Shown here in pieces: positions 3,691 through 26,548 of a stretch of DNA of 64,000 nucleotides. The notes below the pieces were generated by a model. That model was not told the origin of the DNA. It made no database searches and saw only the letters and a program-made list of their open reading frames with translations. The DNA comes from Lampropedia puyangensis (GTDB lineage Bacteria > Pseudomonadota > Gammaproteobacteria > Burkholderiales > Burkholderiaceae_C). The stretch is from contig NZ_STFG01000002.1 of assembly GCF_004833285.1 (NCBI RefSeq), forward strand, positions 62,001 to 126,000, given 5' to 3'. How positions within the stretch are numbered: the stretch's first letter is position 1; every line of letters begins with the position of its first letter. Made by a program: the position numbers and the translations under genes.

Positions 3691-3817
3691 TAAGAACGGT
3701 TCATGCAAGCTTGGTACGTCGTGGCGAAGCCTTGCTGCGTCACCTGTACTGCTTGTGGCTTTGCGCTTATTTTGAATCGCAAGCTGCCAGCTTATTGGGT
3801 TGTATGAATAACCCCCA
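3691..3817 (+). repeat. Structured intergenic repeat, copy A (divergent)
   Basis: Aligns along its whole length with copies B (10614) and C (26421) but has many substitutions. The fold is kept: an outer helix (around 3699-3711 with 3797-3809), an 8-bp helix GCGAAGCC (3724-3731) with GGCTTTGC (3757-3764), and a hairpin (3779-3785 with 3789-3795, loop GCC). Compared with copy C several pairs have changed on both sides: C-G to T-A at 3704/3804, A-T to G-C at 3729/3759 and at 3783/3791, and C-G to T-A at 3785/3789. It is the oldest-looking copy and the base of its outer helix is decayed. No coding content. Confidence 0.8.
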
Positions 3818-4228
3818 GCCCGGTTTTGTTTGGGTTGGATGGAGACACATCGCAGGCTTTTGGAAAACTGAGAGGGACGACTCAGCCGCAGCTTGCCATT
3901 GCTCTATCGCGCTTTGACCGATTTGTCCGGATAAAGGCCGAAAAATGCGCTTTAAGCTTGTGTTTGCAGTCCTTGTATCCACAGCGCAACCACATTCTAT
4001 TATGTGAATTGTAGAAAATTGTTACAAATTAGCCTTGAAAAATCACCATTTTCAGTGATATGCGGCATTGTCAATTTTCTCTACGATGGCTCACCCTAAT
4101 GGGCTTGGCGATGGGCTTTATGGCAATCATCAAGCCCTATCGATCCGGGTGTGCGCTTGTCTATCGGTCCAAGGTATGGGGGCGCATCACCCTTGGTGTT
4201 TCTGTTCGCTTCCTAAGGATGCATCCTG

Positions 4229-7200
4229 ATGAATTTTCATCCCCCCTCGCATGCCATTCGCAGTATGGCATCGGCAGCCGCCTTACTTTCTTGTGTGCTT
4301 ATGGGTATTAGCACACCCACGTTGGCACAAACGCCGCAAACCAAAAGCTTTTCTAAAGATGGCGTTTGGACGGTACCGCGCTCGGTCACGGAAGTCAAAG
4401 TTACCGTCAAAGGTGCGGGGGGCAGCGGTGGTGGTGGCCACAGCACGCATGGCGGTGGCCGTGGCGGGAATGGGACTCAGGTGGTCCATACGCTATCTGT
4501 GACGCCGGGGGAGGCCTTTCGCGTACAAATCGGTTCGGGGGGGAAAGCCTCTGCCGCTTATTCTTCAGGTGCTGGCGGTGGCAGTGCTGGGGTATACCGG
4601 CAGAGTGAAAGCAACACCGTGCCGCTGATTTTGGCGGGGGGCGGGGCAGGTGGCGGCGCTGCGTCCATCGCAACTACGCCCTCAGGTCAATCCGTTCCCT
4701 ATCCGGGTATCAACGGCGCTAGCGGTTGCACACGCTTTACTGGTAATTACACTGGCAATGTCAACGGTGGCAAGGGCGCGCCTAACGGCGTTGCTGGCGG
4801 CGGCGGGGTAGATGGCGCATCAGGCGGCGGTTTCCATGGTGGTGGTGGTGCGGGCAAGGTTGGTGGCGGTTCGAACTATTCTTATGGCACCAGTAAGTAT
4901 CCAGAAGAAAACTCCACCTGCTCAGCTGGCGGAGGATCGGGTGGGAGTGGCGGTGGACGCAACAGTGGCGGCAGTGCAGGCAGCGATGGTTCGGTCAGCT
5001 TCAGCTGGACTGCAACCGAGGTCTACGGCACCCAAACTATCTCCTGCGGCGCAACAGCCGACTATACCTATGGGGATGCTGATTTTGACATTCCGACAGC
5101 CAGCGTTACCACCAGCACTGGTGACCCCGCAGGGGCTTTGAGCTACAGCAACGTCAGCGGTGCTTGTTCGCTGGAAGGCAGCAAGCTGCATATTCTCAGC
5201 GCTGGCACGTGTACTTACCAAGTGACCGCTGCGCAAACGGCTGCGCTGGATGCGTCCGATCCCAAAACCTGCTCGGTGACGATTGCAAAGAAGCCAACGA
5301 CCATTGCACTCAGCCCAGTCAATGTGGACGAGGGGGCGACCATTCAGATACCCACTAACCTGGAACCTTTGGCGGATACAGGCGAAACGACTTCTTATAC
5401 AGCCACACCTAGCAACATCTGCTCCGTCGCGTCCGCAACCGGTGTGGTAACGGGCCGGGCGGCAGGTGTTTGCACTGTCAAAGCCAGCCGCAGTGGCAGT
5501 ACCAACCTGCAAAGCAATACCAGCGAGCCGGTCCAAATCACTGTTAAACCACCCGTTTACACGGTCTCGGGCACAGTCACTGGCTTGGTGAATGGGCAAA
5601 GCGCTACTGTCAGCAACAATAGTGCTACCGTGGGCACAGGCAACACGTTCAGTTTCAACGCGGAGCGGGGCAGTTCCTACAGTTTGGTCGCCACTGCCCC
5701 GCACCATAGTTGTACACCTGTCAATGACCAAGTTGTGGCCAACCAGTCAAGCCTCAGCATCGTCTGCGCGCCCAATCAATACAGCATCAGCGGACATGTC
5801 TCTGGTTTGGCTACCGGTACATCAGGCACTGTCCAATTAAGCTCCATGCAAGGGGGGCCCTCCACGGTCATTGGAGCGAATGGCGCATTCAACTTGGCCA
5901 ACAGCATGACTTATCCCAACCCCTTTACTGCATCGGCTACTGCCACGGGCTACTCTTGTAGTACTGCCACAGGCAACGTCAGCGAAGGTGATGTGACCAA
6001 CGCGGATATAACCTGTACGGCTAACACGTATACGTTGAGCGGTGCAGTTAGCGGTTTGACTGGCGAGGTGGAACTGCAAATGGGCAGCGCGACGCAAACC
6101 GTGCGCGATACCGATGCGCAACAAACCTTTGCATTTGTTGATGGCCTAAGCCATGACCAACGCTATGCACTGACAGTGAAGACCCAACCGACTGGCCAGG
6201 TCTGTACCCTCTCTGCCACTGGGAGCGGTACTGCCAGTGCCGATGTAACCGGTGTGGCCATTGTTTGTGAGGCGGCACGTTACACGATCACAGCCAACGT
6301 CTCTGGCCTAGCGAGCGGCAACACTTTGACACTGCAAAACAATGGCGCGGATGATTTGAATGTGGTTTTGGATGGCAGCTTCGACTTCACGACACCGGTA
6401 GAGCACGGCCAGAACTATGCGGTTACCGTCAAATTGCCACAGCCAAGCGGACAGATTTGCTCTCTCTCGCAAGACGCAGGTACTGCTACGGGCGATGTGA
6501 ATGTCGCGGTGGCATGTGCCAATCAATACGCTGTCAATGGCGTGGCTGAGCCAAGAATTGCCGGTACGGTGAGCTGCCCCACTGAGCCTATTACCCATGG
6601 CAACCAGGCGCAATGCACGGCCACAGCTGAGGCCGGCTGGCGCTTCACAGGTTTTGCAGCGACGAGCCTCTGTACACACACCAGTGGCACAGGCCAGTCA
6701 GTTTGTGAGCTCGACGATGTACAGCGTGACACCATTGTCACTGCGCAATTCGCGCCGTATTTTGAGGGCATTACCGTGCCTACTTCGGGGCAAGGAGGCG
6801 TTGCCAGTGCCAGCTTCACAGGTGGGGGGGAGACCTGCCGTTTTGATACCGGTGCCACTGCGTTCGAGGCCGCGCCTACTGTGGCCCCTGCTGGCCAGAC
6901 ACTGCCGCAAGGTATGTTCCGTTTCCGGCTGATGGACTGTGATGACAGTAGCACGGTCACGATGACCACCACTTGGCCAGATGCCGTCAACGGCTATACC
7001 AAACACGGTTACGCCAGCGCAGCAGACCAGCAAAGTGGAACACTGAGTTACTTTGCCCCTGAAAACATGAGCATTCATGGCAATACTGTGACTTTCACCA
7101 TCACCGACGGCCAACTTGGAGATGACGACTGGACTGATGACGGCGTGATTACCGATCCTAGTGGCCCGACTATGCCTGTTGGCAGCAATGGCATAACTAC

Positions 7201-7297
7201 GCAGCCTGTGCCAACGTTGGCGGCATGGAGCCTGATGCTGCTGTCAGTATTGATGATGTTGGTCGGTTTGCATCGCAGTAAGCGCTACAAAGCGTAA
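4229..7297 (+). CDS. Large secreted glycine-rich protein with Ig-like repeats and an IPTL-type C-terminal anchor
   Basis: 1022 residues. A Sec signal peptide ends near TLAQT (residue 34). Residues about 38-260 are a glycine-rich domain opening F-x4-G-x-WTVP-x2-V, as in Gly-rich phage and secreted proteins. Two Ig-like blocks follow (about 265-440). Then come repeats of 74-84 residues starting at about 444 (YTVSGTVTGL), 518 (YSISGHVSGL), 601 (YTLSGAVSGL), 685 (YTITANVSGL) and 767 (YAVNG), each preceded by a conserved Cys. Residues about 835-990 resemble the 'choice-of-anchor U' domain (C-R-F dyad, GDDDWTDDG). The tail VPTLAAWSLMLLSVLMMLVG plus a basic end fits IPTL-CTERM. AAGGA before the ATG supports the start. 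No sorting enzyme lies in the window. Role unknown; probably a surface or exported structural protein. Confidence 0.85.
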   Translation: MNFHPPSHAIRSMASAAALLSCVLMGISTPTLAQTPQTKSFSKDGVWTVPRSVTEVKVTVKGAGGSGGGGHSTHGGGRGGNGTQVVHTLSVTPGEAFRVQIGSGGKASAAYSSGAGGGSAGVYRQSESNTVPLILAGGGAGGGAASIATTPSGQSVPYPGINGASGCTRFTGNYTGNVNGGKGAPNGVAGGGGVDGASGGGFHGGGGAGKVGGGSNYSYGTSKYPEENSTCSAGGGSGGSGGGRNSGGSAGSDGSVSFSWTATEVYGTQTISCGATADYTYGDADFDIPTASVTTSTGDPAGALSYSNVSGACSLEGSKLHILSAGTCTYQVTAAQTAALDASDPKTCSVTIAKKPTTIALSPVNVDEGATIQIPTNLEPLADTGETTSYTATPSNICSVASATGVVTGRAAGVCTVKASRSGSTNLQSNTSEPVQITVKPPVYTVSGTVTGLVNGQSATVSNNSATVGTGNTFSFNAERGSSYSLVATAPHHSCTPVNDQVVANQSSLSIVCAPNQYSISGHVSGLATGTSGTVQLSSMQGGPSTVIGANGAFNLANSMTYPNPFTASATATGYSCSTATGNVSEGDVTNADITCTANTYTLSGAVSGLTGEVELQMGSATQTVRDTDAQQTFAFVDGLSHDQRYALTVKTQPTGQVCTLSATGSGTASADVTGVAIVCEAARYTITANVSGLASGNTLTLQNNGADDLNVVLDGSFDFTTPVEHGQNYAVTVKLPQPSGQICSLSQDAGTATGDVNVAVACANQYAVNGVAEPRIAGTVSCPTEPITHGNQAQCTATAEAGWRFTGFAATSLCTHTSGTGQSVCELDDVQRDTIVTAQFAPYFEGITVPTSGQGGVASASFTGGGETCRFDTGATAFEAAPTVAPAGQTLPQGMFRFRLMDCDDSSTVTMTTTWPDAVNGYTKHGYASAADQQSGTLSYFAPENMSIHGNTVTFTITDGQLGDDDWTDDGVITDPSGPTMPVGSNGITTQPVPTLAAWSLMLLSVLMMLVGLHRSKRYKA

Positions 7298-7306
7298 GCC
7301 GCTGTT

Positions 7307-7354
7307 CCGTGCAGATCGTGTGATGGCAAGACAGCCTTCAGGTTGTCTGCACGG
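7307..7354 (+). terminator. Inverted repeat downstream of the IPTL-type gene
   Basis: CCGTGCAGA (7307-7315) pairs perfectly with TCTGCACGG (7346-7354), and an inner AGACA/TGTCT pair can extend the structure. It begins nine bases after the stop codon. Only a short T run (ATTTCGG) follows, so it may be a transcript-end stabiliser rather than a full intrinsic terminator. Confidence 0.5.
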
Positions 7355-7559
7355 ATTTCGGATGGAGTATTTACGACCAAAGTAGTTGTAAGGGGACTCA
7401 CGCATTGCGGTAGTCAAACTGGCAGGTGCTAGTCTGGTTGCTAGGTCTCGTCCGACTTCAAGTTCGCGGCTTCAGACCTGATGACAATGGGTGTGTTTAT
7501 TTCCCTCTCAACGCGACCCATGCAATACGTTTTTAAGGGATGCTGACACAAGTCTTGGT

Positions 7560-8492
7560 TTAGATGGGCGTCACCGGATCTTTGCCCGCAAATACTGCAT
7601 CCAGGTTCTGCAAGAAGATATCGAACTGGGCTTGAATGGCTTCAGGCGACCAGCCGGCCATGTGGGGCGAGAGCAGCAAGTGGTTTTGCCCAATCAGCGC
7701 ATGTGGCGGGGCAGGCTCACTTTCATACACATCCAATGCGGCGCCTGCAATGCTGCGTGTTTCTAAGGCAGTGGCCAACGCCGTTGTATCCACAATGCTG
7801 CCCCGGCCCACGTTGACCAGATAGCCTTCGGGCCCCAGCTGCGCCAACACCTTAGCGTTGACCATGTGCTTGGTTGCAGCGCCGCCGGGCATGGCGCATA
7901 CCAACACATCGCACCACCGGGCGAGGGCTTCTGCATTGTCGAAATACGTGTACTCCAACGCAGGGCGCTGGTGGCGGTTGTGGTAGCCAATGTCCATGCG
8001 AAACGCACGGGCGCGTTGGGCAATGCGTTCGCCCACTGCACCCAAGCCCAGAATGCCCAAACGCTTGCCCGACACCTGGGGTGGCAAGGCGATTTGCGTG
8101 CGCCACACGCCGTCGCGGCAGAGGCGGTCGAGCTCGCTGAAATTGCGCATCACTGCAATCATCATGCCGATGGCGTGGTCGGCCACGCATTCGTCATTGG
8201 CGCCACGACCATGGGTCACGATCAAGCCGCGTGCCTTGGCCGCGGCCACATCAATATTCTCGTAACCCGCGCCCATGCTGGAAACCATTCGCAGACGCGG
8301 CATGGCATCCATTTCGTCGGCACGCAAGCCCAGCAGGCCGATGGTTAGCACCACTTCAAAGTCTGCTCCTTGGGTTTCAATCGCACGGGCACGGGCCTCG
8401 GGCGTGAAGGCAAACGTAGGGCGGTAATGCTGTTGCAGATGTGTTTGGTGGGCGACACTGATGTCGTTCAGCACGAGGATGGAAATACCCAT
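7560..8492 (-). CDS. D-2-hydroxyacid dehydrogenase (hydroxypyruvate/glyoxylate reductase-like)
   Basis: 310 residues, the normal length of the D-isomer-specific 2-hydroxyacid dehydrogenases. The NAD(P)-binding motif LGILGLGAVGERIAQRA lies near residues 144-160. The catalytic triad is visible: Arg in NVGRGSIVD, Glu in LDVYESEP, and His in SPHMAGWS. The enzyme reduces a 2-keto acid (such as glyoxylate or hydroxypyruvate) to the D-hydroxy acid in the cytosol. The start ATG at 8492 has a weak GAAAGA site upstream. It stands alone, convergent with the IPTL-type gene. Exact substrate is not readable from sequence. Confidence 0.9.
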   Translation of the reverse strand: MGISILVLNDISVAHQTHLQQHYRPTFAFTPEARARAIETQGADFEVVLTIGLLGLRADEMDAMPRLRMVSSMGAGYENIDVAAAKARGLIVTHGRGANDECVADHAIGMMIAVMRNFSELDRLCRDGVWRTQIALPPQVSGKRLGILGLGAVGERIAQRARAFRMDIGYHNRHQRPALEYTYFDNAEALARWCDVLVCAMPGGAATKHMVNAKVLAQLGPEGYLVNVGRGSIVDTTALATALETRSIAGAALDVYESEPAPPHALIGQNHLLLSPHMAGWSPEAIQAQFDIFLQNLDAVFAGKDPVTPI

Positions 8493-8614
8493 ATCAATCT
8501 TTCATGGCCGGGAAATGCCGGTGTGCTGCATTCTAGGTTTGTGTGCCGGAGCTTGCAGCTAACTTTTGCCACTATTGGCATCTGGTACTGCGATGTGGCT
8601 TTTGCTGCACACGC

Positions 8615-9994
8615 TCAGAGGGAGCGCAAGCATTCCAACGCCTGCTCAATGCGCTCTACGCCGTGCACGGTCAGGCCTTCAATCGGTTTTTTCGGCGCAT
8701 TGGCTTGCGGCACGATGGCAACGGTAAAACCCAATTTGGCCGCTTCGCGCAGGCGTTCTTGACCGCGTGAAGCGGGGCGCACCTCGCCTGCTAGGCCCAC
8801 TTCGCCAAAAGCCAGAAAACCTTTGGGTAGGGCTTGGTTGCGCAGCGAAGACTGGATGGCCAGCAAAATGGCCAAGTCTGCAGCGGGCTCACCAATGCGC
8901 ACCCCGCCTACGGCGTTGATGAACACGTCTTGGTCGTAAGTGGCTACGCCTGCATGGCGGTGCAGCACGGCCAGTAGCATGGCTAAGCGTTCGCGGTCTA
9001 AGCCTACGGATAAACGCCGTGGACTGGGGCCGCCGGTATCGACCAAGGCTTGGATTTCCACTAGCAGTGGGCGGCTGCCTTCGAGGGTGACTAACACGCA
9101 ACTGCCGGGTACCGGTTCGGTATGCTGGCTCAGGAAAATGGCGCTGGGGTTAGAGACGCCTTTGAGGCCATGCTCGGTCATGGCGAAGACGCCAATTTCA
9201 TTGACGGCGCCGAAACGGTTTTTAATGGCGCGCACGAGTCGGAAACTGCTGTGGGTGTCGCCTTCGAAATACAGCACGGTATCGACCATGTGCTCCAGCA
9301 CGCGTGGGCCTGCGATGGTGCCTTCTTTGGTGACGTGGCCTACCAGTACAACCGCAATGCCGGTGTTTTTGGCCAGTCTTGTCAAATGGGCTGCGCACTC
9401 GCGCACCTGCGCGACTGAGCCAGGGGCAGAGCTGAGTTGATCCGAGTAGAGCGTTTGAATTGAATCAATGACAGCGACTGCCGGCTGGTGGGTTTCAATC
9501 GCTTGGGTGATTTTTTCTAGTCCAATTTCGGTCAGGATTGGAACCTGGCTGTCTGGCAGGCCCAGACGGCGCGCGCGCAGAGCGACTTGTGCGCCGCTTT
9601 CTTCGCCGCTGATGTAGAGCGTAGGCAAACCCAAACGCTGCAGACGATCTAGCGCTTGCAGCAATAAGGTTGATTTGCCGATGCCCGGATCACCGCCAAT
9701 GAGCACCACCGAGCCTTCCACAATGCCGCCACCGAGAACGCGGTCAAGTTCATGGAGTGTGGTGGCTGAGCGCGCGACATCTTGCGCATCAATCTGGGCC
9801 AATGGTGTGATGGCTTGTGCTGTAGCGCCTGCATAGTGGGCACTGGCCAATCGATTTTTGCTTTCAGACTTGGCGCTGGGCGCGGCGGTTTCAATCAGGT
9901 TGTTCCAGGCTTCGCAAGAGGGGCAGCGGCCAAGCCAGCGTGCAGAGCTAGCGCCACAGTTGGAGCAGACATAGGAGACTTTATCGCGGGCCAT
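8615..9994 (-). CDS. radA: DNA repair protein RadA (Sms)
   Basis: 459 residues, standard RadA length. The N-terminal C4 zinc finger has Cys10, Cys13, Cys24 and Cys27. The RecA-like core has Walker A GDPGIGKST at 101-109 and the RadA-specific KNRFG motif inside IKNRFGAVNEIGVF. The C-terminal third is the Lon-protease-like domain (GGVRIGEPAADLAILLAI), which lacks protease activity in this family. RadA is a DnaB-like helicase that drives branch migration during recombination and replication-fork repair. Starts at ATG 9994, only 33 bp after the GtrA-like gene on the same strand. Confidence 0.97.
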   Translation of the reverse strand: MARDKVSYVCSNCGASSARWLGRCPSCEAWNNLIETAAPSAKSESKNRLASAHYAGATAQAITPLAQIDAQDVARSATTLHELDRVLGGGIVEGSVVLIGGDPGIGKSTLLLQALDRLQRLGLPTLYISGEESGAQVALRARRLGLPDSQVPILTEIGLEKITQAIETHQPAVAVIDSIQTLYSDQLSSAPGSVAQVRECAAHLTRLAKNTGIAVVLVGHVTKEGTIAGPRVLEHMVDTVLYFEGDTHSSFRLVRAIKNRFGAVNEIGVFAMTEHGLKGVSNPSAIFLSQHTEPVPGSCVLVTLEGSRPLLVEIQALVDTGGPSPRRLSVGLDRERLAMLLAVLHRHAGVATYDQDVFINAVGGVRIGEPAADLAILLAIQSSLRNQALPKGFLAFGEVGLAGEVRPASRGQERLREAAKLGFTVAIVPQANAPKKPIEGLTVHGVERIEQALECLRSL

Positions 9995-10027
9995 GTACAG
10001 GATGTGTGGGGGTATAAAAAAGGTTTG

Positions 10028-10474
10028 TTACCGGTGTGGTTGGTGAGGTTGCAACCGAAACAGCCAAGTGCTGCGAATGGCGAATGAGGCAATGTACAGC
10101 AGCACATCTACCCCGGCTTTGGTGGGGACGGCAGGCCATTGCCAACTGTGGACCAGCCACTGCACTGCAGCGGCCGACGCCAGCATCATAGCCACGGCCA
10201 GAACCACATAGCCAATCAATTGTGTGCGCAATGCATGGTGGTGCGCCCCTTTGAACACGAAAACCCGGTTGCCGATGAAGTTGAACAGTGCTGACAGCAG
10301 TCGGGCGAAGATGACCGAGACCACGACATGCCCGCTCAGGTGCAGAAAAAGGGCGAATAGGCCCAAGTCCAATGCAAAGGACGCGCCAGCCAGACTCAGG
10401 TCTTTGAAAAGCGTGGCATGGCGATGCCACGTTTGGCGCAGAGTATCAACAATGGTGGACGCAGGACGGAGCAT
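10028..10474 (-). CDS. GtrA-like four-helix membrane protein
   Basis: 148 residues with four hydrophobic segments and the family hallmark FARLLSALFNFIGNRVFVFK (around residues 56-75), typical of the GtrA/DPMS1-type family. Such proteins are thought to help move undecaprenyl-linked sugars across the inner membrane, usually beside a GtrB-like glycosyltransferase. No glycosyltransferase partner is present here; the gene instead precedes radA on the same strand. The upstream region has no clear ribosome binding site. Family assignment is good, function uncertain. Confidence 0.8.
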   Translation of the reverse strand: MLRPASTIVDTLRQTWHRHATLFKDLSLAGASFALDLGLFALFLHLSGHVVVSVIFARLLSALFNFIGNRVFVFKGAHHHALRTQLIGYVVLAVAMMLASAAAVQWLVHSWQWPAVPTKAGVDVLLYIASFAIRSTWLFRLQPHQPHR

Positions 10475-10925
10475 AAACCGGGAATTGATGAGGCAACAAT
10501 GTGGGTTGGCAGGTTGTATGGTGTCTGCTGTAGGCAGGAAAGTTCAGTGGACCATGCTGACGCTATGGCCGCTTGGCGGTTAGACAGAGCCCCCAGCGGC
10601 AAAGGAGCGGGAATAAGAGCGACTAAAACAACTCTTGATACGTCGAAAGCAAAACCTTGTCGTACTACTCGTACTGCCTGCGGTTTTGCGCCTAGTCTCA
10701 ACCAACACCTTCGGTTTTCTGGGTTGTGTTAGCCACTCTAAATAGGATGGCCCCCCGATCATACTGGCAGCAGCCGCTGAAAACGGCGCACGGCGTGAGC
10801 CGCGTCTTGAGTTTGTGAAAAGACGTTGAGCAGGCTGCTAGAGGCGTTTCCAAGTGGCTTGCTCGTGTGGATGGGATCATGGATACTGCCTATTTCACAC
10901 TTTCTGTGAGTTCAAAGGCTGTTCT
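10475..10925. other. Divergent intergenic region with repeat copy B
   Basis: About 450 bases between the minus-strand gtrA-like gene and the plus-strand DUF1840 gene. The only structured content seen is repeat copy B (10614-10741). Because the flanking genes point away from each other, a terminator role for the repeat is unlikely. No credible gene; the open frames that cross the repeat are by-products of it. Confidence 0.6.
10614..10741 (+). repeat. Structured intergenic repeat, copy B
   Basis: Shares an identical 65-base core (10639-10703) with copy C (26445-26509). The outer helix pairs 10616-10634 with 10721-10739 (16 of 19 positions including one G-T). Inner helix: GCAAAACC (10649-10656) with GGTTTTGC (10682-10689). 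A third, weaker hairpin is AACACC/GGTTTT near 10704-10718. The element is flanked on both sides by TAA directly outside the GAGCG...CACTC ends. At 10623/10732 a C-G pair replaces the G-G mismatch seen in copy C. Confidence 0.85.
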
Positions 10926-11270
10926 ATGATCAAATTCACCGCCCATTCCAGCGCCCCGATTCAATACTTGAATGCAGATGCCAAGCGATTGTTGAACATC
11001 ATGGGTAAAGATGGAGACAGTGTGCAGGGCATCATCACGCAAGAGCAGTTGCCCGCTGCGTTGCATGCGTTGGAACAAGCGATTTCTCAGGAGCAGGCAC
11101 AAGGCACGCCAGCGCAGGAGCATGCAAGTACGGAGCATACAAGCGCCAATGAGGCTGATGAGCCAGGCGCGCAAACCACATCGGTTACGTTAAAGCAGCG
11201 CGCACAACCCTTGTTGCAGTTGCTGCGTACTGCACAGCAAAACGATGAATATGTGGTTTGGGGCGATTGA
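10926..11270 (+). CDS. DUF1840 domain protein
   Basis: 114 residues starting MIKFTAHSSAPIQYLNADA. The N-terminal half (a short beta hairpin, then a helix with RLLNIMGKDGDSVQGIITQEQLPAALHALE) matches DUF1840, a small cytosolic family largely confined to betaproteobacteria, with no known function. The middle (residues about 60-85) is a low-complexity stretch rich in Gln, Ala, Glu and Thr; the C-terminus (QPLLQLLRTAQQNDEYVVWG) is conserved in the family. An AAAGG site eight bases upstream supports the ATG at 10926; longer versions would begin in unconserved sequence. Confidence 0.8.
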   Translation: MIKFTAHSSAPIQYLNADAKRLLNIMGKDGDSVQGIITQEQLPAALHALEQAISQEQAQGTPAQEHASTEHTSANEADEPGAQTTSVTLKQRAQPLLQLLRTAQQNDEYVVWGD

Positions 11271-11311
11271 GTTGGTTTAACAGCCAGCTTGCTGGTGGCG
11301 CGATGGGATGG

Positions 11312-12607
11312 TCAGCTATCCGATTCGGGTTGACCCAAGCCAACGATGTAAAGCCTGTGTTTGGCGCGTGTTGCCGCAATGTAGAGTTGGCGCTGCTTTT
11401 CTTCCAGCTCGGCCTCATTGGTGGGGGGCTCGCCGGAATCGACAATCACCACCACGTCAAATTCCAAGCCTGAACATGCATTCAGACTCATGATTTTGAC
11501 AGTGTCTTCCTGTGGGTTGAATTCGCCAAAGCCTTTGCGCAGTTGATGGGGAATGCGTTGGTAGCGCAGGGCCCCGTTGCACACATCCATTTGAAAGCGA
11601 TTGCTGCATAGAACTGCCATATTGCCCCATGCCGTGCCTTCGGATTGGTGTGCCTGTTGTAGCAATTCAGTCGTTTTCCTGCCCTGCGCGCGCAAGTTGG
11701 CCATTGGAAAAAGCAGTACAGCAGGCCCTGGGCGTTGACTGCTTAGTGGTTTCAATCGGGGGATGGCGCTGTCTGGAGTGTCTTGGGGCTCAATCAAGGG
11801 TCCAGCCATGCGCTGTGCGGCATTGAATATGGGGGCCGTATTGCGGTGATTGATGGTCAGTCGCTGAACTTGGTGTGTATGAATGCCAAGCCGTTTGAAC
11901 TGAATTCGGCTGGTGCGCTTGCGCTTGAACATGCTTTGGGCATCATCAAAATACAGTTCAAGGTGATTGGTCTCTGGCGTGGGTAAATGGGTCAGCATGG
12001 CCAGCCATGGCCCAGAGAAGTCATGGGCTTCATCAACCAAAACTGCTGAATATTGCCCGGTGGGAATGGATCCGTTGGAGAGGCCTTGGATGACGCGATC
12101 TACCAAATCTTTCATCTGTGCTGAAGGGGTCAGCGTTTTTGGTGGGAGCTCTAATTGGAAGTGAAGCAGTTGTTCACGGCACCAGCGATGAAAGTGCCTG
12201 ACCACAATCCAGGACTGCAGGCCTTTGCTGTGCAATTGCTGTTGAAGCCAGACGGCCAGTGGTTCGTTATAGCAAAGCACCAGAATGGGGGTGAGGCTGC
12301 GCTTGGCCCGCAAGCCTTCAGCCAGTTCTTGCGCATGGGCGCAAAGCATCAGGGTTTTGCCGGACCCTGCGACACCATGAATGATGAGATGGCCCGCCTC
12401 GGATGTGGCAGGCTGCTCGGAGGCGAGGAACTGCGATGGCATTTGGGTCGAAATGGCTTCGAGTTCTTGCCGGAACTGGTGGTCTAAGTCCTTGGAAGAG
12501 TCTTTGCGGGAATGCACAAATGGAACACGCCCTGAGATTTTTGCGACAGCTTTACCCCAAATGGTGGTAGCTGCCCAAGGATTCTCAGTATCAGGTTCCG
12601 AAGCCAT
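11312..12607 (-). CDS. UvrD-like superfamily 1 helicase/ATPase, short form
   Basis: 431 residues with SF1 helicase motifs in order: Walker A GVAGSGKT near residue 80, Walker B VLVDEAHDF near 195, motif IV-like INHRNTAP near 260, a late SLNACSGLEFDVVVIV segment near 370 and motif VI YIAATRAKHRLYIVG near the end. Proteins with this helicase type often carry an N-terminal NERD nuclease domain; here only about 70 residues precede Walker A, so that domain is absent or lost. No clear ribosome binding site precedes the ATG at 12607. Likely a cytosolic DNA or RNA translocase; pathway unknown. It stands alone between DUF1840 (convergent) and the slyD-like gene. Confidence 0.8.
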   Translation of the reverse strand: MASEPDTENPWAATTIWGKAVAKISGRVPFVHSRKDSSKDLDHQFRQELEAISTQMPSQFLASEQPATSEAGHLIIHGVAGSGKTLMLCAHAQELAEGLRAKRSLTPILVLCYNEPLAVWLQQQLHSKGLQSWIVVRHFHRWCREQLLHFQLELPPKTLTPSAQMKDLVDRVIQGLSNGSIPTGQYSAVLVDEAHDFSGPWLAMLTHLPTPETNHLELYFDDAQSMFKRKRTSRIQFKRLGIHTHQVQRLTINHRNTAPIFNAAQRMAGPLIEPQDTPDSAIPRLKPLSSQRPGPAVLLFPMANLRAQGRKTTELLQQAHQSEGTAWGNMAVLCSNRFQMDVCNGALRYQRIPHQLRKGFGEFNPQEDTVKIMSLNACSGLEFDVVVIVDSGEPPTNEAELEEKQRQLYIAATRAKHRLYIVGLGQPESDS

Positions 12608-18265: not shown

Positions 18266-19192
18266 ATGTTGCGCATGGTGGTTGTGGTGTTGTTACTGGC
18301 CAATGGCCTGTATTTTGCGTGGGCGCAAGGGCATTTAGCGTCATTGGGGCAGATGGTGGGGTGGGGTGCATCTCCGACTTTGGAAGGGGCATCTGCCCCC
18401 ATCTCAGATTCCAGCGCAGAGACCCATACGCCCTTGAACCCTGACGCTATTGAGTGGCAGCTGCCTACGCAAGCGGTCAATCAACCAACTGTGCAATCGG
18501 CAGCCCAATCGACGGCGCCCGCCATTGCAGAGCCTGCTCCGCCGAATGTTGCTGTATCCCTAACTGCTGCGCCACAGGCGGATGCGGGCTCCGTAACGGC
18601 TGAAGCGGCTGCGCCAGAGCAGTCTGCCGATGTGGTGGTGCGGCCAGAGGAGCAAGTGTCTGTAGCCCAAGAGCAAAAGCCTCAGGAGAGCCCGCAACCG
18701 CAGCCCGAACCCGAGCGATCGTCTCCAGTCGCGGTTGCTGAAGCGCCAAAGCAATGCATGGCGATTGGCCCCTTTTCGCCTGAACAAATGGAGCCCATTC
18801 GTGCAAGCTTGCAAGGCATTGCACGCAACCAGTGGCGTATCGAAGATAGCCCCGTCAGTGGGCGGTGGATGGTGTTCTGGGGCGGCGCGAGTGATGAATT
18901 AGTGCTCAGTGCTCGCAAAGGGGAGTTGCAGAGCAAAGGGGTTTCGCATGAGCGCTTGCGCTCAAGCCCTGTTGGCATTGGTTTTTCTTTGGGGCGCTTT
19001 TCTTCCGAGGCTGCGGCACAACAGCACAAACGGGACATCGAGCGCAAAGGTATTCGTGGTACCAGTGTCGAAGTCGAGCGTGCACCTAGCACGGTCTATA
19101 CCATTGAATTTCCTGATTACGCGACCATCAAAGAGGTCGTACGCCGCGACTTGAGTCGTTATTTTGGTGCACGCAATTTGCAGGCCTGTTGA
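18266..19192 (+). CDS. SPOR-domain membrane protein
   Basis: 308 residues. One N-terminal membrane segment (MLRMVVVVLLLANGLYFAWA) is followed by a long, low-complexity Ala/Gln/Pro/Glu linker (about 40-165) and a C-terminal region of two beta-alpha-beta units (CMAIGPFSPEQ ... VGIGFSLGRFSSEAAAQQH) typical of SPOR domains, which bind denuded glycan strands at division septa. The start lies three bases after the birA stop, so the two are coupled. Betaproteobacterial birA genes are often followed by such a gene. Likely periplasmic with an inner-membrane anchor; a cell-division role is inferred. Confidence 0.8.
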   Translation: MLRMVVVVLLLANGLYFAWAQGHLASLGQMVGWGASPTLEGASAPISDSSAETHTPLNPDAIEWQLPTQAVNQPTVQSAAQSTAPAIAEPAPPNVAVSLTAAPQADAGSVTAEAAAPEQSADVVVRPEEQVSVAQEQKPQESPQPQPEPERSSPVAVAEAPKQCMAIGPFSPEQMEPIRASLQGIARNQWRIEDSPVSGRWMVFWGGASDELVLSARKGELQSKGVSHERLRSSPVGIGFSLGRFSSEAAAQQHKRDIERKGIRGTSVEVERAPSTVYTIEFPDYATIKEVVRRDLSRYFGARNLQAC

Positions 19193-19216
19193 GCTCAATG
19201 GTTTCGAAATGCTATT

Positions 19217-19255
19217 TAAGTGCTATTAAATTGTTTTAATAGCACTTATTTTTTT
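19217..19255 (+). terminator. Intrinsic terminator after the SPOR gene
   Basis: A 14-bp perfect stem, AAGTGCTATTAAA with TTTAATAGCACTT plus one more pair, and a four-base loop (TTGT, 19231-19234) are followed by seven Ts (19249-19255). It sits 25 bases past the stop at 19192. The reverse direction lacks a T tract, so it acts mainly on the plus strand. Confidence 0.9.
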
Positions 19256-19291
19256 ACTTGCTTACTTGCTTGCTTGCGAACGGTTGGTTAT

Positions 19292-20401
19292 TCAAGTAGA
19301 GGTCTCTTTATAGGCTGCAAACCGATCTGCACCGCCCGCTGTTTCAACTGCAGGTGTGAGCTTGCGGCGCTTTTCTGTAGACACAGCTTTGGCAATGGCG
19401 CCTATGTGGTCAGGCGTGGTGCCACAGCAGCCCCCGACAATGTTGACCAAGCCCTCAGCGGCGAATTCATGCACCAAACGGCTGGTGACCTCAGGGGTTT
19501 CATCAAAGCCTGTGTCGCTCATCGGGTTGGGCAAGCCTGCATTGGGATAGCAACTGATATAGGTATCCTTGGCGACGTTGGCCAATTCCTGGATGTAGGG
19601 GCGCATCAATGCAGCGCCCAAGGCGCAATTGAGACCGATGGCCAGTGGCTGCACATGGCGCACGCTGTACCAGAAGGCCGACACCGTCTGTCCAGACAGA
19701 ATGCGGCCAGACGCATCGGTTACCGTGCCACTGATGATGATGGGCAAGCGCTCGCCTGTTTGTTCAAACGCCTGTTCTACCGCAAACAATGCAGCCTTGG
19801 CATTGAGCGTGTCGAAGATGGTTTCGACCAGAATCACGTCGCACCCACCCTCAATCAGTGCCAGGGTTTGTTCCAGATAGGCTTGGCGCAGGGTTTCAAA
19901 GTCGACATTGCGCGCGCCCGGGTCGTTCACGTCTGGGCTGATACTGGCAGTTTTTGGGGTAGGGCCGAGGGCGCCTGCTGCAAATCGGGGCTTGTCTGGT
20001 GTGCTGAATTTGTCGCATGCGGCACGGGCCAACTGCGCTGAGCGCAGGTTCATCTCGCGCGCTAAATCGGCCATGCCGTAGTCTTCTTGCGCCACGGTGG
20101 TGGCGCCAAATGTGTTGGTTTCGATCAAATCTGCACCAGCAGCCAGGTAGCCTTCATGGATGCTACTGATGACATCCGGGCGGGTGAGCGAGAGTAGCTC
20201 GTTATTGCCTTTGACGTCACGGGGGAAATCGGTAAAACGGCTTCCTGCTGCGTGGGGGCCGTTGTAGCCTTCGCCGCGGTACTGGGCTTCGCCCAGCTTG
20301 AAGCGCTGGATCATGGTTCCCATGGCTCCATCCAAGATGGCAATGCGCTGTTGCAAGATTGAGGGCAGCGCTTGGCCGCGGGTGTAGGCGAGTGATGGCA
20401 T
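19292..20401 (-). CDS. metH: Methionine synthase, homocysteine S-methyltransferase half
   Basis: 369 residues covering only the first module of cobalamin-dependent Met[12 protein letters not shown] at the start, then zinc ligands Cys in LNCALGA (about 259) and the pair in [10 protein letters not shown] (about 325-326), which bind and activate homocysteine. In many Burkholderiales metH is split, with the pterin, B12 and activation modules in a second gene next door. Here the next gene downstream is the convergent SPOR gene, so the second half must lie elsewhere. The upstream sequence has a TACAAT element ending eight bases before the ATG and no ribosome binding site, consistent with a leaderless mRNA. 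Confidence 0.93.
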
Positions 20402-20409
20402 AGGCCAGT

Positions 20410-20415
20410 ATTGTA
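20410..20415 (-). promoter_or_regulatory. Possible leaderless -10 element for metH
   Basis: On the minus strand the hexamer TACAAT ends eight bases before the metH ATG, which places the predicted transcription start at or next to the start codon. No ribosome binding site is present. The -35 is weak. Confidence 0.35.
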
Positions 20416-20568
20416 GGCGCGCATGCTTGTCTTCGCAGGGGTGGGGAGGCGGCCATTTGCACTGCTATTGAAGGCACAAGACGGCGTAGGGTGCAGGATC
20501 AATGGGGGATAGCATGGGCATGGGGAGTGGCAAAAATCACGCTTGTTTTTAAGGCTGTTGAACAAGCG

Positions 20569-20652
20569 TATACTCGCGCCCCTTTTGAGGCCGGAGCGCG
20601 CACGCCGAAATGTCAAAAATTCTTACAGAATTTGGTTGGACGGGGCTTTTTT
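20569..20652 (+). ncRNA. Possible small RNA with its own promoter and terminator
   Basis: A TATACT hexamer at 20569-20574 would start transcription near 20580. GCCCC (20578-20582) can pair with GGGGC (20642-20646), which is directly followed by six Ts (20647-20652), as in an intrinsic terminator closing a long stem. Inside, AAATTCT (20617-20623) pairs with AGAATTT (20627-20633). The -35 is not obvious (TTGTTT lies 20 bases upstream). The total RNA would be about 75 nt. No known family recognised. Confidence 0.3.
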
Positions 20653-20777
20653 CGTCGTCATATTAGCTTGTAAACCTTGCCATCATTGAGTTTGTCATTG
20701 AAGGCTGGCGCCAGTACTAAGCTGAAAGCGCGAAGCCTTTGCGCAAAGCCTTACCATGCCTGGAAATTAATAATTAT

Positions 20778-20830
20778 TTGAAATCACTATATTTAGTGTT
20801 TTTGTTATTTTCAGACACTACCGGTAGTGT
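20778..20830 (+). promoter_or_regulatory. nrd promoter with two NrdR boxes
   Basis: Two 16-base palindromic boxes: TCACTATATTTAGTGT (20784-20799) and the perfect palindrome ACACTACCGGTAGTGT (20815-20830). Their starts are 31 bp apart, i.e. three helical turns, the arrangement known for the ATP-cone repressor NrdR at ribonucleotide reductase promoters. A TTGAAA (20778-20783) and an AT-rich -10 region (about 20803) overlap the boxes. NrdR would repress when dATP is high. The nrdR gene itself is not in the window. Confidence 0.85.
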
Positions 20831-20951
20831 TTTGTGTGCGTGGCGTGGTACCATTGATCCCGTTGCGCACAGACTGTTTTTGGTGCGCTTTTTCGCGGCC
20901 CTCCGTGGTTGCGAAGCCTTGTTTACATTGCATTCAAAGGAGCCTTTTCTC

Positions 20952-21182
20952 ATGCAGGTCACGGTTTACAGCACCCCTTCATGCGTTCAATGCACGGCCA
21001 CGTATCGTGCGCTGGATAGACAGGGTATCGCTTATGAAGTGGTTGACTTGAGCCAAGATACGGCTGCAATGGAGAAGGTCAAGGCATTGGGTTATTCCCA
21101 AGCTCCCGTCGTTATGGCTGGTAACGAGCATTGGAGCGGTTTTCGCCCAGACAAAATCGGCAGCTTGACGGCCGCTGTCTGA
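20952..21182 (+). CDS. nrdH: Glutaredoxin-like electron donor NrdH
   Basis: 76 residues, usual NrdH size. The redox pair is Cys11-Val-Gln-Cys14, as in NrdH proteins, and the C-terminal WSGFRPDKI segment is the NrdH signature that distinguishes it from glutaredoxins and lets thioredoxin reductase reduce it. It supplies electrons to the class Ib ribonucleotide reductase NrdE. AAAGGAG lies about nine bases upstream of ATG 20952. First gene of the nrd operon. Confidence 0.95.
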   Translation: MQVTVYSTPSCVQCTATYRALDRQGIAYEVVDLSQDTAAMEKVKALGYSQAPVVMAGNEHWSGFRPDKIGSLTAAV

Positions 21183-21272
21183 TGGCTTTTCTCCGTAATT
21201 GGGGAAATAACGAAAGAAGCTGAATTTTTTTGTGGTTTGCAGAGTGTTTGCTGCACATAAAAGGCGAAAACC

Positions 21273-21698
21273 ATGTTGGTGTACTTTTCCAGTGTGTCTG
21301 AGAATACCCATCGGTTCGTACAGAAGTTAGATGTACCAGCCAAGCGCATCCCTTTGAAGCCCGATGAGGCTGCCCAGTGGCTGGTCGATGCGCCCTATAT
21401 TTTGGTGGTGCCATCGTATGGCGGTGGCAGCATTCAAGGTGCAGTCCCCAAGCCGGTTATTCAGTTTCTCAACCAAGAGCACAACCGTGGCCTGATTCGT
21501 GGCGTCATTGCCGCAGGCAATACCAACTTTGGTACCGCCTACTGTATTGCTGGCACGATCATTGCGCAAAAGTGCCAGGTGCCCTTGATGTACAAGTTTG
21601 AATTGCTGGGCACACCAGATGATGTAGCCAAAGTGCGTCAAGGGGTGTTGGCGTTTTTTGCCCCGCACGACTGCGCAGATGCCTGCGCTGCTTCCTGA
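21273..21698 (+). CDS. nrdI: Flavodoxin-like NrdI
   Basis: 141 residues. The start [18 protein letters not shown] is the FMN-phosphate loop of NrdI, followed by PSYGGG and [15 protein letters not shown], both NrdI-typical. NrdI is the flavoprotein that supplies the oxidant for building the dimanganese-tyrosyl radical of NrdF. The gene lies between nrdH and nrdE, 90 bp after nrdH. The C-terminal [10 protein letters not shown] tail is Cys-containing and unconserved. Confidence 0.95.
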
Positions 21699-21738
21699 TC
21701 TCAGGTACGCAGCCTTCGGTGAATTTTTTTCCGCATTA

Positions 21739-21767
21739 GAGAAAATGCTCTGATTTTCTTGTTTTTT
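21739..21767 (+). terminator. Weak AT-rich hairpin with T run between nrdI and nrdE
   Basis: GAGAAAAT (21739-21746) can pair with ATTTTCTT (21753-21760), followed by GTTTTTT. The stem is mostly A-T, so at best it attenuates transcription into nrdE. Confidence 0.3.
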
Positions 21768-21802
21768 GAGAATTTTTATTGTTTTTTAAGATTGGACGCG
21801 AC

Positions 21803-24001
21803 ATGTCTTCTGCCACCGTACACGCCCTTCGTCCGAATGAAGAACCCGTTGCTCAAGTGGTGGGTAAATCGCCTGCCACCAAAGAGGAAATGGAGCTGGA
21901 CTACCACGCTCTCAATGCCATGCTCAACCTGTTTGGGCCCAACGGTGAAATTCAGCTCGACAAGGACCGTCTGGCAGCGCGCCAATACTTCTTGCAGCAC
22001 GTGAACCAAAATACCGTGTTTTTCCATAATTTGAAGGAAAAACTCGATTACCTCGTCGAAAAAGGCTATTACGAAGGCGAAGTGCTTGCGCAATACAACT
22101 TTGCTTTTATTCAGAAGCTGTGGGATGCCGCTTGGGCGCAGAAATTCCGCTTCCCGACCTTCTTGGGCGCGTTCAAGTACTACACCAGCTACACGCTGAA
22201 AACCTTTGATGGCAAGCGCTATCTTGAGCGTTATGAAGACCGCGTGTGCATGGTCGCACTGGCACTGGCGCAAGGCAATGAGCAAACGGCGATGGAGCTG
22301 ATGCTGGAGATCATCTCTGGTCGCTTCCAGCCCGCCACGCCCACCTTCCTCAACTGCGGTAAGAAACAACGCGGTGAGCTGGTTTCGTGCTTTTTGCTGC
22401 GCATTGAAGACAATATGGAGTCGATTGGCCGCTCCATCAATTCAGCACTGCAACTCTCCAAGCGTGGTGGTGGCGTGGCGTTTTGCCTGACCAATGTGCG
22501 TGAAGCTGGTGCGCCGATCAAGCACATCGAGAACCAATCCTCCGGCGTGATTCCGATCATGAAGCTGCTGGAAGATGCGTTCTCTTACGCCAACCAGCTC
22601 GGCGCACGCCAAGGCGCAGGTGCGGTGTATATGAGCGCGCACCACCCCGATATTCTGAAATTCCTCGACACCAAGCGTGAGAACGCGGACGAGAAAATCC
22701 GCATCAAAACCTTGTCGCTGGGCGTGGTGATTCCAGATATCACGTTTGAACTCGCCAAAAACAACGAGGACATGTACTTGTTCTCGCCTTATGACGTGCA
22801 GCGCGTGTACGGCGTGCCCATGTCCGATATTTCGGTCAGCGAGAAATACCGCGAGATGGTGGACAACCCCAACATCCGCAAAAAGAAAATCAACGCCCGC
22901 GAGTTCTTCCAAACTCTGGCGGAAATCCAGTTTGAATCCGGTTACCCGTACATCATGTTTGAAGATACGGTCAACCGCGCCAACCCGATCAAAGGCCGCA
23001 TCAATATGAGCAACCTCTGCTCTGAGATTTTGCAGGTCAATGAACCATCTGTGTACGACGACGATTTGGGTTACGAAACCATCGGCAAGGATATTTCTTG
23101 CAACCTCGGTTCGCTCAATATCGCCAAAACCATGGATTCGCCCGACTTTGCCAAGTCCGTCGAAGTGGCGATTCGCGCGCTGTCGTCCGTGTCTGACCAA
23201 AGCCATATCAGCTCGGTGCCTTCTATCGAGAAAGGCAATGACGATTCCCACGCCATCGGTTTGGGGCAAATGAACCTGCACGGCTATCTGGCGCGTGAGA
23301 AGATTTACTACGGCAGTGAAGAAGGAATCGACTTCACCGACCTGTACTTCTACACAATCACTTACCACGCCATCAAAGCGTCGAACAAAATCGCCATCGA
23401 AACCGGCAAGACCTTCAAAGGCTTTGCCGATTCCAAATACGCCAGCGGCGAATACTTTGACAAGTACATCTTCCAGAAGTACGAGCCCAAAACACAGAAA
23501 GTGCGCGAGCTGTTCTTGAAGTCCGGCATCGCCATTCCCACGCAAGACGATTGGAAAGCCCTCAAAGCCTCGGTACAAGAACACGGCATCTACAACCAGA
23601 ACCTGCAGGCCATTCCGCCGACTGGCTCGATCTCGTACATCAACAACTCCACGTCGAGCATTCACCCGATTGTGGCGAAGATCGAAATTCGTAAAGAAGG
23701 CAAAGTCGGCCGCGTGTACTACCCTGCGCCATATCTGGCGGCAGACAACTTGGATTACTACCAAGATGCCTATGAAATCGGCCCAGAGAAAATCATCGAT
23801 ACCTACGCCGCCGCCACCAAACACGTGGACCAAGGCCTGTCGCTGACACTGTTCTTCCGCGACACCGCCACCACCCGCGATGTGAACAAAGCACAAATCT
23901 ACGCTTGGCGCAAAGGCATCAAAACCATTTACTACATCCGCCTGCGCCAAATGGCGTTGGAAGGCACTGAGGTTGAGGGCTGCGTTTCTTGCACGTTGTG
24001 A
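21803..24001 (+). CDS. nrdE: Class Ib ribonucleotide reductase catalytic subunit NrdE
   Basis: 732 residues. Recognisable class I motifs: [13 protein letters not shown], a thiyl-radical region [14 protein letters not shown], the [13 protein letters not shown] loop, and a C-terminal EGCVSCTL with the redox-active Cys pair reduced by NrdH. It lacks the N-terminal ATP-cone typical of NrdA, in line with class Ib. It reduces ribonucleoside diphosphates to deoxy forms in the cytosol. The start at 21803 ([10 protein letters not shown]) is preferred over a TTG at 21779. Expected to act with NrdF (25393), which in this operon is separated from it by three other genes. Confidence 0.96.
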
Positions 24002-24013
24002 TGAGTGTGCAAG

Positions 24014-24601
24014 ATGGCTATTGGTAGATACGTTCAAATAGCCTGCTTGAGCTTATTTGTCTCAGGCTGCGCATCGTATTTCAAAGCCATGCAAGGTCCC
24101 AAAGATCATTTGGGGCTTGGCCAGTGGAAACATGTCAGCACAACCACTCTGGGGACATACAGAAAATTTGAGATAGGTGCTATTGACTTTGATCGAGGTG
24201 CTGCGGCTTTCACAATTGAAGGCTTTCCACTCGGGAAGTATTGGCTTGCCTTTGATGGGCAGTCGCAAGAGTGCAATGAACTGCTACGGAAAGTGCGGAT
24301 TGATTACTCAGTGACGGTTGTTGGAAGGATTCCTTCTGTGAGTCGTGCGAACGGATATATCTATTGGCCAGCATCACAGTATGCGATGCCTCCTCGCGAA
24401 AATGTTTTTGTTGTCAATGACGGTTCTGTGAAGGCTGAGCCTAGGCCGCTGTACAAGTCTTTAAATCAAGACATGTTTGAACTAGAACCGGATTTGAAAT
24501 ACAGACTGCAGGTAACGACAAAAATCGATCAGGACGTGTTAAAAAATACGGTCGTTGATTGCCGACTGAAGGCTAAATTTTTTTATTACATTGATCCTTG
24601 A
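24014..24601 (+). CDS. Putative lipoprotein of unknown function
   Basis: 195 residues. The N-terminus MAIGRYVQIACLSLFVSGC is a lipoprotein signal peptide with a lipobox V-S-G-C, so the mature protein would be anchored through Cys19. The rest shows no motif I recognise; it ends in a DCRLKAKFFYYIDP strand and has the look of a small beta-rich periplasmic domain. An in-frame GTG at 24005 is an alternative start. Base composition is lower in GC than nrdE and nrdF, hinting at later insertion into the nrd operon. Starts about 12 bp after the nrdE stop. Function unknown. Confidence 0.7.
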   Translation: MAIGRYVQIACLSLFVSGCASYFKAMQGPKDHLGLGQWKHVSTTTLGTYRKFEIGAIDFDRGAAAFTIEGFPLGKYWLAFDGQSQECNELLRKVRIDYSVTVVGRIPSVSRANGYIYWPASQYAMPPRENVFVVNDGSVKAEPRPLYKSLNQDMFELEPDLKYRLQVTTKIDQDVLKNTVVDCRLKAKFFYYIDP

Positions 24602-24613
24602 TTTTTTTTGCCC

Positions 24614-24991
24614 ATGCCCCAAGTCACCCTCGAATACACCGCGAATCTCCCGATTCAACCTGCCAAACTGCTCACCGCAGTCAATGCGGCGTTGTTTGCG
24701 ACTGGTCAGTTCAAACTGCCCCAAGACATTAAAAGTCGTGCACGCGCTTTAGAGGTCTTTGCCGTCGGTGATGACCTGCCCAACCAAGCGTTTGTGCATT
24801 TGCAGATTGCCGTGTTGGATGGTCGCAGCATTGAAGTCCGCAGGCAGATTGCGGATGCGGGCTTGGCTGCATTGCAGCAAGCGATGGATTGGGATGCCTT
24901 GCCTTTGCAGGTGCAATTGGGCGCAGAAGTGAAAGAGATGACGCTGGCCACATATGCCCGCGTTAAAAACACACCGCAAGCGGCCGCTTAA
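24614..24991 (+). CDS. 5-carboxymethyl-2-hydroxymuconate isomerase family (tautomerase fold)
   Basis: 125 residues starting MPQVTLEYTANL, with the catalytic Pro directly after Met, as in CHMI and other tautomerase-superfamily enzymes. Further CHMI-typical stretches are the VNAALFATGQF helix, DIKSRA and FVHLQIAVLDGRSIEVR. In homoprotocatechuate breakdown CHMI isomerises a muconate intermediate, but no other gene of that pathway is nearby. The ATG at 24614 is preferred over a TTG at 24608 because Pro must be residue 2. It sits inside the nrd operon, just after the lipoprotein gene. Confidence 0.8.
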   Translation: MPQVTLEYTANLPIQPAKLLTAVNAALFATGQFKLPQDIKSRARALEVFAVGDDLPNQAFVHLQIAVLDGRSIEVRRQIADAGLAALQQAMDWDALPLQVQLGAEVKEMTLATYARVKNTPQAAA

Positions 24992-25014
24992 AGTCGTTAT
25001 TGATAAGGATTGGT

Positions 25015-25302
25015 ATGCCTACTGTTCGCAACAATACGGCCGCAGGCCGTTATGAAATCTATTTAGACGACGGTACCGAAGCGGGTTTTGCCGATTACCG
25101 CGTGCGCGGCAAGCAGGTGGAGTTGCCGCATACGGTGGTCAAACCCGAATTCAATGGCCAAGGTTTGGCTGCGCAACTGGTGCAAACGGCGTTGGAAGAC
25201 ATTCAGGCCAATGGTCAGTGCGTGGTGCCCTCGTGCTCGTATGTGGAGGCGTATATCCGTCGCAAGCCACAGTGGCAAAGCTTGTTGTGCAGTATTGATT
25301 GA
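25015..25302 (+). CDS. Small GNAT-type N-acetyltransferase (YjdJ-like)
   Basis: 95 residues. The single conserved block (HTVVKPEFNGQGLAAQLVQ, then VVPSCSYVEAYIRRKPQW) is the short acetyl-CoA binding module of the YjdJ-like family. The acetyl-CoA pyrophosphate loop is FNGQGLA. Substrate unknown. AAGGATT lies just before ATG 25015; a TTG at 25000 is less likely. Located between nrdE and nrdF in the same orientation. Confidence 0.85.
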   Translation: MPTVRNNTAAGRYEIYLDDGTEAGFADYRVRGKQVELPHTVVKPEFNGQGLAAQLVQTALEDIQANGQCVVPSCSYVEAYIRRKPQWQSLLCSID

Positions 25303-25377
25303 GCGTGCGTTTTTTTGTTTGAAGCGAGCCCGTTGTTGACGTGTGTGTTGACAAGGGCTTTTGTCCTTTATTTTTGA

Positions 25378-26382
<1,005 letters not shown>

Positions 26383-26391
26383 AGGCTGGCT

Positions 26392-26411
26392 CTTGGCGGC
26401 TAGCTGCCAAG
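26392..26411 (+). terminator. Hairpin directly after nrdF
   Basis: CTTGGCGGC, loop TA, GCTGCCAAG forms a nine-bp stem with one G-T pair, starting nine bases after the nrdF stop. No T tract follows, so it may protect the 3' end rather than terminate. Confidence 0.45.
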
Positions 26412-26420
26412 CCTAGGCAT

Positions 26421-26548
26421 TAAGAGCGGGTAACACAACCCTTGTACGTCGAAAGCAAAACCTTGTCGTACTACTCGTACTGCCTGCGGTTTTGCGCCTA
26501 GTCTCAACCGCAAACCTTTGGTTTGCTGGGTTGTGTTAGCCGCTCTAA
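26421..26548 (+). repeat. Structured intergenic repeat, copy C
   Basis: The best-folding copy. Outer helix: 26423-26441 with 26528-26546, 18 of 19 paired. Helix 2: GCAAAACC (26455-26462) with GGTTTTGC (26488-26495), enclosing a loop that holds GTAC twice. Helix 3: GCAAACC (26510-26516), loop TTT, GGTTTGC (26520-26526). Together they make a three-way junction. The GAGCGG...CCGCTC ends are flanked by TAA on both sides. The core is identical to copy B over 65 bases. Confidence 0.88.

Follow-up and report, generated by a model that had tools for sequence, protein, structure and literature searches.

A Correia-like miniature transposable element with IS5-type ends in Lampropedia puyangensis

The genome of Lampropedia puyangensis contains a dispersed family of short, folded repeats, three of which (copies A, B and C) lie in the 64,000-nucleotide stretch analysed here (contig NZ_STFG01000002.1, positions 62,001 to 126,000, hereafter the window). 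Their interpretation as a Correia-like miniature inverted-repeat transposable element (MITE), with ends of the type found in IS5-family insertion sequences, is well supported, and the repeats are very probably both a transposable element and a relative of the Correia elements of Neisseria. A preliminary description of the window had located all three copies correctly, had named four paired base changes between A and C in which every letter is right, and had placed B between divergent genes, which encode a GtrA protein (PF04138, minus strand) and a DUF1840 protein (PF08895, plus strand). Its limits for B and C coincide exactly with the element plus a 3-bp TAA duplication on either side. The term "near-identical" that it applied to all three fits B and C, but not the divergent copy A (Table 1), in which the left flank is still TAA but the right one reads CCA, so that the duplication has been lost.

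Alignment of the copies revealed terminal inverted repeats of 18 bp and a flanking direct repeat; the outer helix described previously does exist, but it is formed by the terminal repeats, and the element is a transposable one that duplicates TNA at its target site, which had been overlooked. The 17 copies of L. puyangensis with both ends are 122-125 bp long, and the 24 distinct Lampropedia elements with both ends (these 17 and 7 from G006, another genome of the genus) are flanked by TAA/TAA in 11 cases, TTA/TTA in 9, mixed repeats in none and other sequences in 4 (Fisher's test, 6e-6). Identical TNA stands on both sides of 31 of the 46 distinct elements from several genera, compared with 12.4 when the sides are swapped; the remaining 15 include most of the 112-bp elements outside genome G263, and the second copy of genome G414. 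From 40 places fetched in G263, 37 full copies were obtained (mean divergence 0.7%, 22 identical), flanked by TTA/TTA (20), TAA/TAA (15), TAA/TTA (1) and TTG/TTA (1). For a homologous copy in G263, which belongs to another genus, there is a near-clean empty site in G029, with flanks of 93% and 92% identity: the G263 site is longer by 116 bases, accounted for by a 112-bp element, a 3-bp TAA duplication and a one-base difference, and point differences are also present. The left TAA at this site forms an in-frame stop in a frame open for 552 codons, where G029 has TAG. For copy C no clean empty site emerged, as the region behind the reductase gene could not be aligned between species in the 8 relatives inspected. 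The repeats have the features of a MITE: terminal inverted repeats, a length within 50-500 bp, no transposase gene, a target-site duplication, and an empty site for a homologous copy. An integron attC site was also considered, and was set aside on account of the TNA direct repeat on either side of the copies.

The end sequence, with up to 2 mismatches, is present in 55 of 399 genomes of the bacterial family, among which lone end matches may be due to chance (a reversed-pattern control gave 0-4 matches per strand and genome). Some of the places that were read out are IS5-family insertion sequences; the others are short elements, 112-178 bp long, that share the internal plan of the window element. 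The insertion sequences (L130, L131, L132 and L158, from three genomes) are 866-873 bp long, differ from the ends of the element at 2-3 of 18 letters, and are flanked by TAA/TAA once and TTA/TTA three times; the one compared with the NF033580 transposase model scored 135.5 bits against a cut-off of 110. A transposase of the IS5 family may therefore move, or have moved, the element in trans. The copies of L. puyangensis differ from one another by several percent, so that they look like an old population. A lone end in C21 (L083) was examined as part of a possible full insertion sequence and dropped, the place being a stretch of long reading frames.

The repeats had been reported as a three-copy family, but the draft genome (3.97 Mb, 76 contigs) holds about 25: blastn with copy C gave 22 matches, and a covariance model of the core gave 25 at E up to 1, copy A included, with 150 of 1829 candidates scored. 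This is a repeat family far beyond chance. Among 60 genomes (that of L. puyangensis, 9 others of the genus, and the rest from the family and order), 4 match, namely L. puyangensis itself, G006 with 15 matches, and two more distant genomes with short matches; the other 8 genomes of the genus gave none in this search. A pattern scan of genome contigs found Lampropedia aestuarii only (3 stretches). With a threshold of E 0.001, the core model R1, built from 20 diverse copies (alignment A3), finds matches in 67 genomes out of 250 in the order, representing 46 of 121 genera and 24 family labels, with at most 20 candidates scored per genome. In the class, R1 matches 21 of 369 genomes, 18 of them outside the order and several with at least four copies, and the copies outside the order have unlike ends where they were inspected; the E-values of the model are rough, and some matches close to the threshold may be due to chance. 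Rfam gave no match at gathering score in the window or in eight loci, and at E up to 10 six loci gave a single match of chance level, elsewhere in L001. Copies with extra sequence in one arm or an internally repeated segment (L207, L112, L140) suggest that the core can grow, and a second partial core-like piece follows one copy (about L208:1610-1644).

Comparison across genera supports the view that a folded structure is maintained in the core. In A3, 12 of 20 pairs have changed on both sides, in 68 cells compared with 27 after shuffling. When 102 matches (97 distinct) were aligned to R1, an alignment that is fitted to the structure, 92.4% of the cells were paired and 17 of the 20 pairs had changes on both sides; double-change cells numbered 350 versus 101 in shuffles, and the covariation score was 0.468 versus 0.155 in shuffled and at most 0.090 in slid controls. 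Within Lampropedia (24 copies), 10 double-change cells in 9 of 45 pairs exceed all 500 shuffles, and the score is 0.070 versus at most 0.045 when slid. Variation between genera is concentrated in the paired arms; outside the helices, the stretches GCGTTGC, CTTGYCGTAC, TGYCTGCG and either GCGCCTAG or GCGCCTTG are for the most part conserved. A search for helices, whose lower bound excludes the Correia ends and for which rows L225 and L232 are uninformative, found 62 of 99 observed cases at a score of 12 or more, versus 130 of 494 in a swapped control that is high because the ends are common to the copies. Two orthologous pairs of copies were found among the loci compared. In L208/L250, from two species (flanks 89% and 83% identical), the hairpin is kept: of 38 pairs in a consensus fold, which was predicted on those two sequences, 29 are the same, 5 have changed on both sides, 4 on one side and none is broken, although replacement by another copy is possible. 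In L296/L297, 59 pairs include no double changes, 4 changes on one side and none broken. The earlier proposal of selection on structure, weak from three copies, gains support once many genera are compared: it outran its evidence, yet pointed the right way.

The core motif resembles that of the Correia elements of Neisseria. A published porB primer of N. meningitidis supplied a 22-nt piece with which Correia loci were retrieved; the full 30-nt primer matched at least 40 places in each gonococcal record. At least one element with both TATAGTGG ends occurs in 13 of 17 IMG/VR stretches, and the letters fit the description in PMC2649163. R1 scored 45-57 bits on the short Correia forms (best E 7e-12); the model holds no Neisseria sequence, and the 22-nt fetch piece alone is worth 19.8 of the 57 bits. 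Long forms scored 20-24 bits (E 0.003-0.026), or matched in the fetch piece alone, because about 50 bp is inserted in one arm. In loci L225-L242 it is the 5' arm of the shared core that carries these roughly 50 extra bp in the long form. Agreement as good as that between the ends of the Correia and window families arose in 7 of 20,000 shuffles for the GAGCGG form and in 41 for the GAGCCG form. The preliminary description had recognised no named family; this is in part incorrect, the core being that of the neisserial Correia elements.

Orientation was counted for copies directly after the stop codon of a frame of at least 100 codons, sense being the plus strand of the core. Of 87 copies of other genera, 8 without a helix or flank were set aside; the remaining 79 comprise 34 sense, 6 antisense, 2 both and 37 neither (p 8e-6), and 13 genomes lean to sense and 1 to the opposite. 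The recent burst in G263 (36 copies) comprises 5 sense, 8 antisense, 7 both and 16 neither; the difference from other genera gives p 0.002, or p 0.06 with copies of intact duplication only. Lost duplications suggest that the other-genus copies are older on average, and the presence of a bias in the former and its absence from the recent burst hint at selective retention, which makes a host role behind stop codons suggestive. Thirteen copies have an outer helix unlike the terminal repeat (15 rows minus L197 and L251, which are merely shifted by one base). Seven of these pair at 15-18 of 18 positions, six of them sense (L199, L259, L260, L261, L268, L302) and one neither (L216); the other six pair at 11-14, near the random level (in 2000 trials, random pairing attained 15 positions 20 times and 16 positions 9 times). 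Some copies behind stops may thus have retained a paired helix even where the original terminal repeats can no longer be recognised. It is conceivable, if somewhat doubtful, that copies which insert after a stop codon in a particular orientation are preferentially retained because the transcripts that run through them form a long hairpin and alter the 3' end of the mRNA or its processing, an effect reported for Correia elements and RNase III. A broader proposal is rather unlikely: the core would be a folded module found across a large part of the class, on MITEs that differ in their ends and duplications (IS5-type with TNA, TA in Correia elements, other ends outside the order); copies that had landed behind stops would be retained by the host for a function at the 3' end of the mRNA or as an antisense RNA, and the Correia elements would represent one orphaned branch.

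Several observations weigh against an IS5-mobilised element with a maintained fold and a host role. No insertion sequence with these ends was found in the draft genome of L. puyangensis (pattern with up to 2 mismatches) or in its stretches near PF01609 matches, and no end pair at insertion-sequence spacing is among the G006 matches listed; the MITE and the IS5-type insertion sequences have their ends alone in common. Further pair types in A3 are no more frequent than in shuffles (23 vs 23.0). Covariation is thin within Lampropedia, where one slid control reached 13 cells in 11 pairs, so that three copies, or one genus, cannot carry the structural claim. Lampropedia also has no orientation bias behind stops (4 sense, 6 antisense and 14 neither of 24). 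In the other genera the ratio of sense to antisense, 13 to 4 with an intact duplication and 21 to 2 without, does not differ significantly (p 0.37); the calling of reading frames was crude, and it was the best-scoring copies that were analysed. Finally, on the plus strand of the core, A.C mismatches exceed G.T by 97 to 40 genome-positions, the reverse of what is expected of a plus-strand RNA, although the orientation bias makes plus the mRNA strand. If an RNA is selected, this excess points to the minus strand, which conflicts with the plus strand carried by the mRNA behind stops. Caution is warranted here, probably because the mismatches descend in part from common ancestors.

The repeats could instead be a plain IS5-type MITE with no host role, in which pairs change together solely through template switching at replication, by which a DNA hairpin corrects one arm from the other (quasi-palindrome correction), or through descent of the copies from different founder elements. 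This is somewhat improbable: the thin covariation within one genus, the lack of bias in the G263 burst (5 sense, 8 antisense of 36) and the balance of mismatches in 62 pooled terminal-repeat helices (31 G.T, 30 A.C) are all consistent with it, but the orientation bias in other genera is not, and correction between arms does not explain why unpaired stretches are largely kept across genera while the arms vary. A structured RNA (regulatory or small) that spreads by transposition, with the minus-strand core RNA as the selected molecule, would account for the mismatch excess, which reads as G.U on that strand, and for the greater predicted stability of the minus-strand fold in 22 of 25 Lampropedia copies (3 the other way), 38 of 64 from other genera (22), 12 of 21 from other Comamonadaceae (6) and 11 of 12 Correia elements (1). 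Such an RNA is nevertheless unlikely: the copies are related, so that counts are not independent, the terminal-repeat helices are balanced, Rfam gives no match, and by distinct positions the ratio of A.C to G.T is 28 to 11 in sense copies, 7 to 2 in antisense and 25 to 22 in others. A family of bidirectional transcription terminators, which the excess of gene 3' ends might suggest (86 of 138 flanks at 69 intergenic places, 16 of the 85 places examined being inside a crude reading frame), is very unlikely, given that B and C lack a T run after the helix, that a separate terminator-like repeat lies behind C, that B is between divergent genes, and that 9 of the 69 places are divergent.

Table 1. 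Elements of the repeat family and associated features in the window
Feature	Position	Strand	Remark
Copy A, divergent and decayed	3694..3814	+	core match 3709-3777, E 3.0e-6
Copy B, 122-bp element, 18-bp terminal inverted repeats	10617..10738	+	core 10633-10702, E 2.0e-16
Left target-site duplication of B, TAA	10614..10616		
Right target-site duplication of B, TAA	10739..10741		
Copy C, 122-bp element, 18-bp terminal inverted repeats	26424..26545	+	core 26439-26508, E 7.1e-14
Left target-site duplication of C, TAA	26421..26423		
Right target-site duplication of C, TAA	26546..26548		
Outer helix of C, 5' side (left terminal inverted repeat)	26424..26441	+	
Outer helix of C, 3' side (right terminal inverted repeat)	26528..26545	-	
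Separate terminator-like inverted repeat with T run; follows C and the gene for the ribonucleotide reductase small chain	26565..26601	+	read from letters

Elsewhere in the window, positions 4229-7297 encode a 1022-aa protein with a C-terminal IPTL-CTERM motif. Among the records searched, NZ_CP119140.1 is a gonococcal record of chromosome size (2.17 Mb) that is filed as a plasmid in a plasmid collection.

A family with the Correia core gives a lead on where Correia elements came from and what moves them. Placing them in a wide family, another branch of which has IS5-type ends and a TNA duplication, makes their origin directly testable and questions the label of IS630-derived that they bear in PMC2817692. 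Set beside the recent, unbiased burst, the biased copies of other genera, some of which have altered arms that nevertheless pair, provide a natural experiment in the passage from selfish hairpin to host element.

The ERIC elements of enterobacteria are of similar size, folded, conserved across genera and MITE-like. IS5-family insertion sequences (NF033580) have similar ends and a TNA duplication, as the window element does, but carry a transposase within 866-873 bp and share only the ends with it. The beta-proteobacterial repeat element, BRE (Hot et al. 2011, PMC3110155), is a dispersed repeat of ~90 bp that resembles a mobile element and is known from Bordetella and several Comamonadaceae; it is often in tandem. 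Another dispersed repeat of G263 (L315:7532-7630; about 85-97 bp, GC-rich, with a CCCCCTTGCAGGGGG hairpin) directly adjoins the element there and at three more places in that genome, occurs at dozens of places in the genus of G263, and is not matched by R1. It may be the published BRE, for which it is as good a candidate as the window family; if the window family were related to BRE, its novelty outside Neisseria could be lower.

Correia elements (CREE, nemis) have been known since 1986 as a peculiarity of Neisseria, with RNase III cleavage, IHF binding, promoters at their ends and a mobilising mechanism given as undetermined; PMC2649163, from which this is taken, states of the target only that it is duplicated. 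The literature searched, which leaves most subscription journals outside its coverage, yielded no report of Correia-like elements outside Neisseria. By the strict definition the window family is not one of them. Correia elements duplicate the target TA, whereas in Lampropedia 20 of 24 elements are flanked by identical copies of TAA or TTA and none is mixed; the difference, TNA versus TA, suggests that the two families may not share a transposase, and NF033580, the only IS5 model run, gave no match in the gonococcal chromosome record. Nor do the ends carry the 26-bp Correia repeat (TATAGTGGATTAA..): those of the window family begin GAGCGRCTAACA.. and read GAGCGRCTAACACAACCC, similar but different, and an extra small hairpin lies beside the right end. 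The conserved core, however, is present, and the two families have homologous cores in the same order, similar ends, a folded form and a dispersed distribution, with a length comparable to the 104-108 bp given for the short Correia form in PMC2649163. The window family thus resembles the Correia elements of Neisseria, from which it differs in its ends and duplication.

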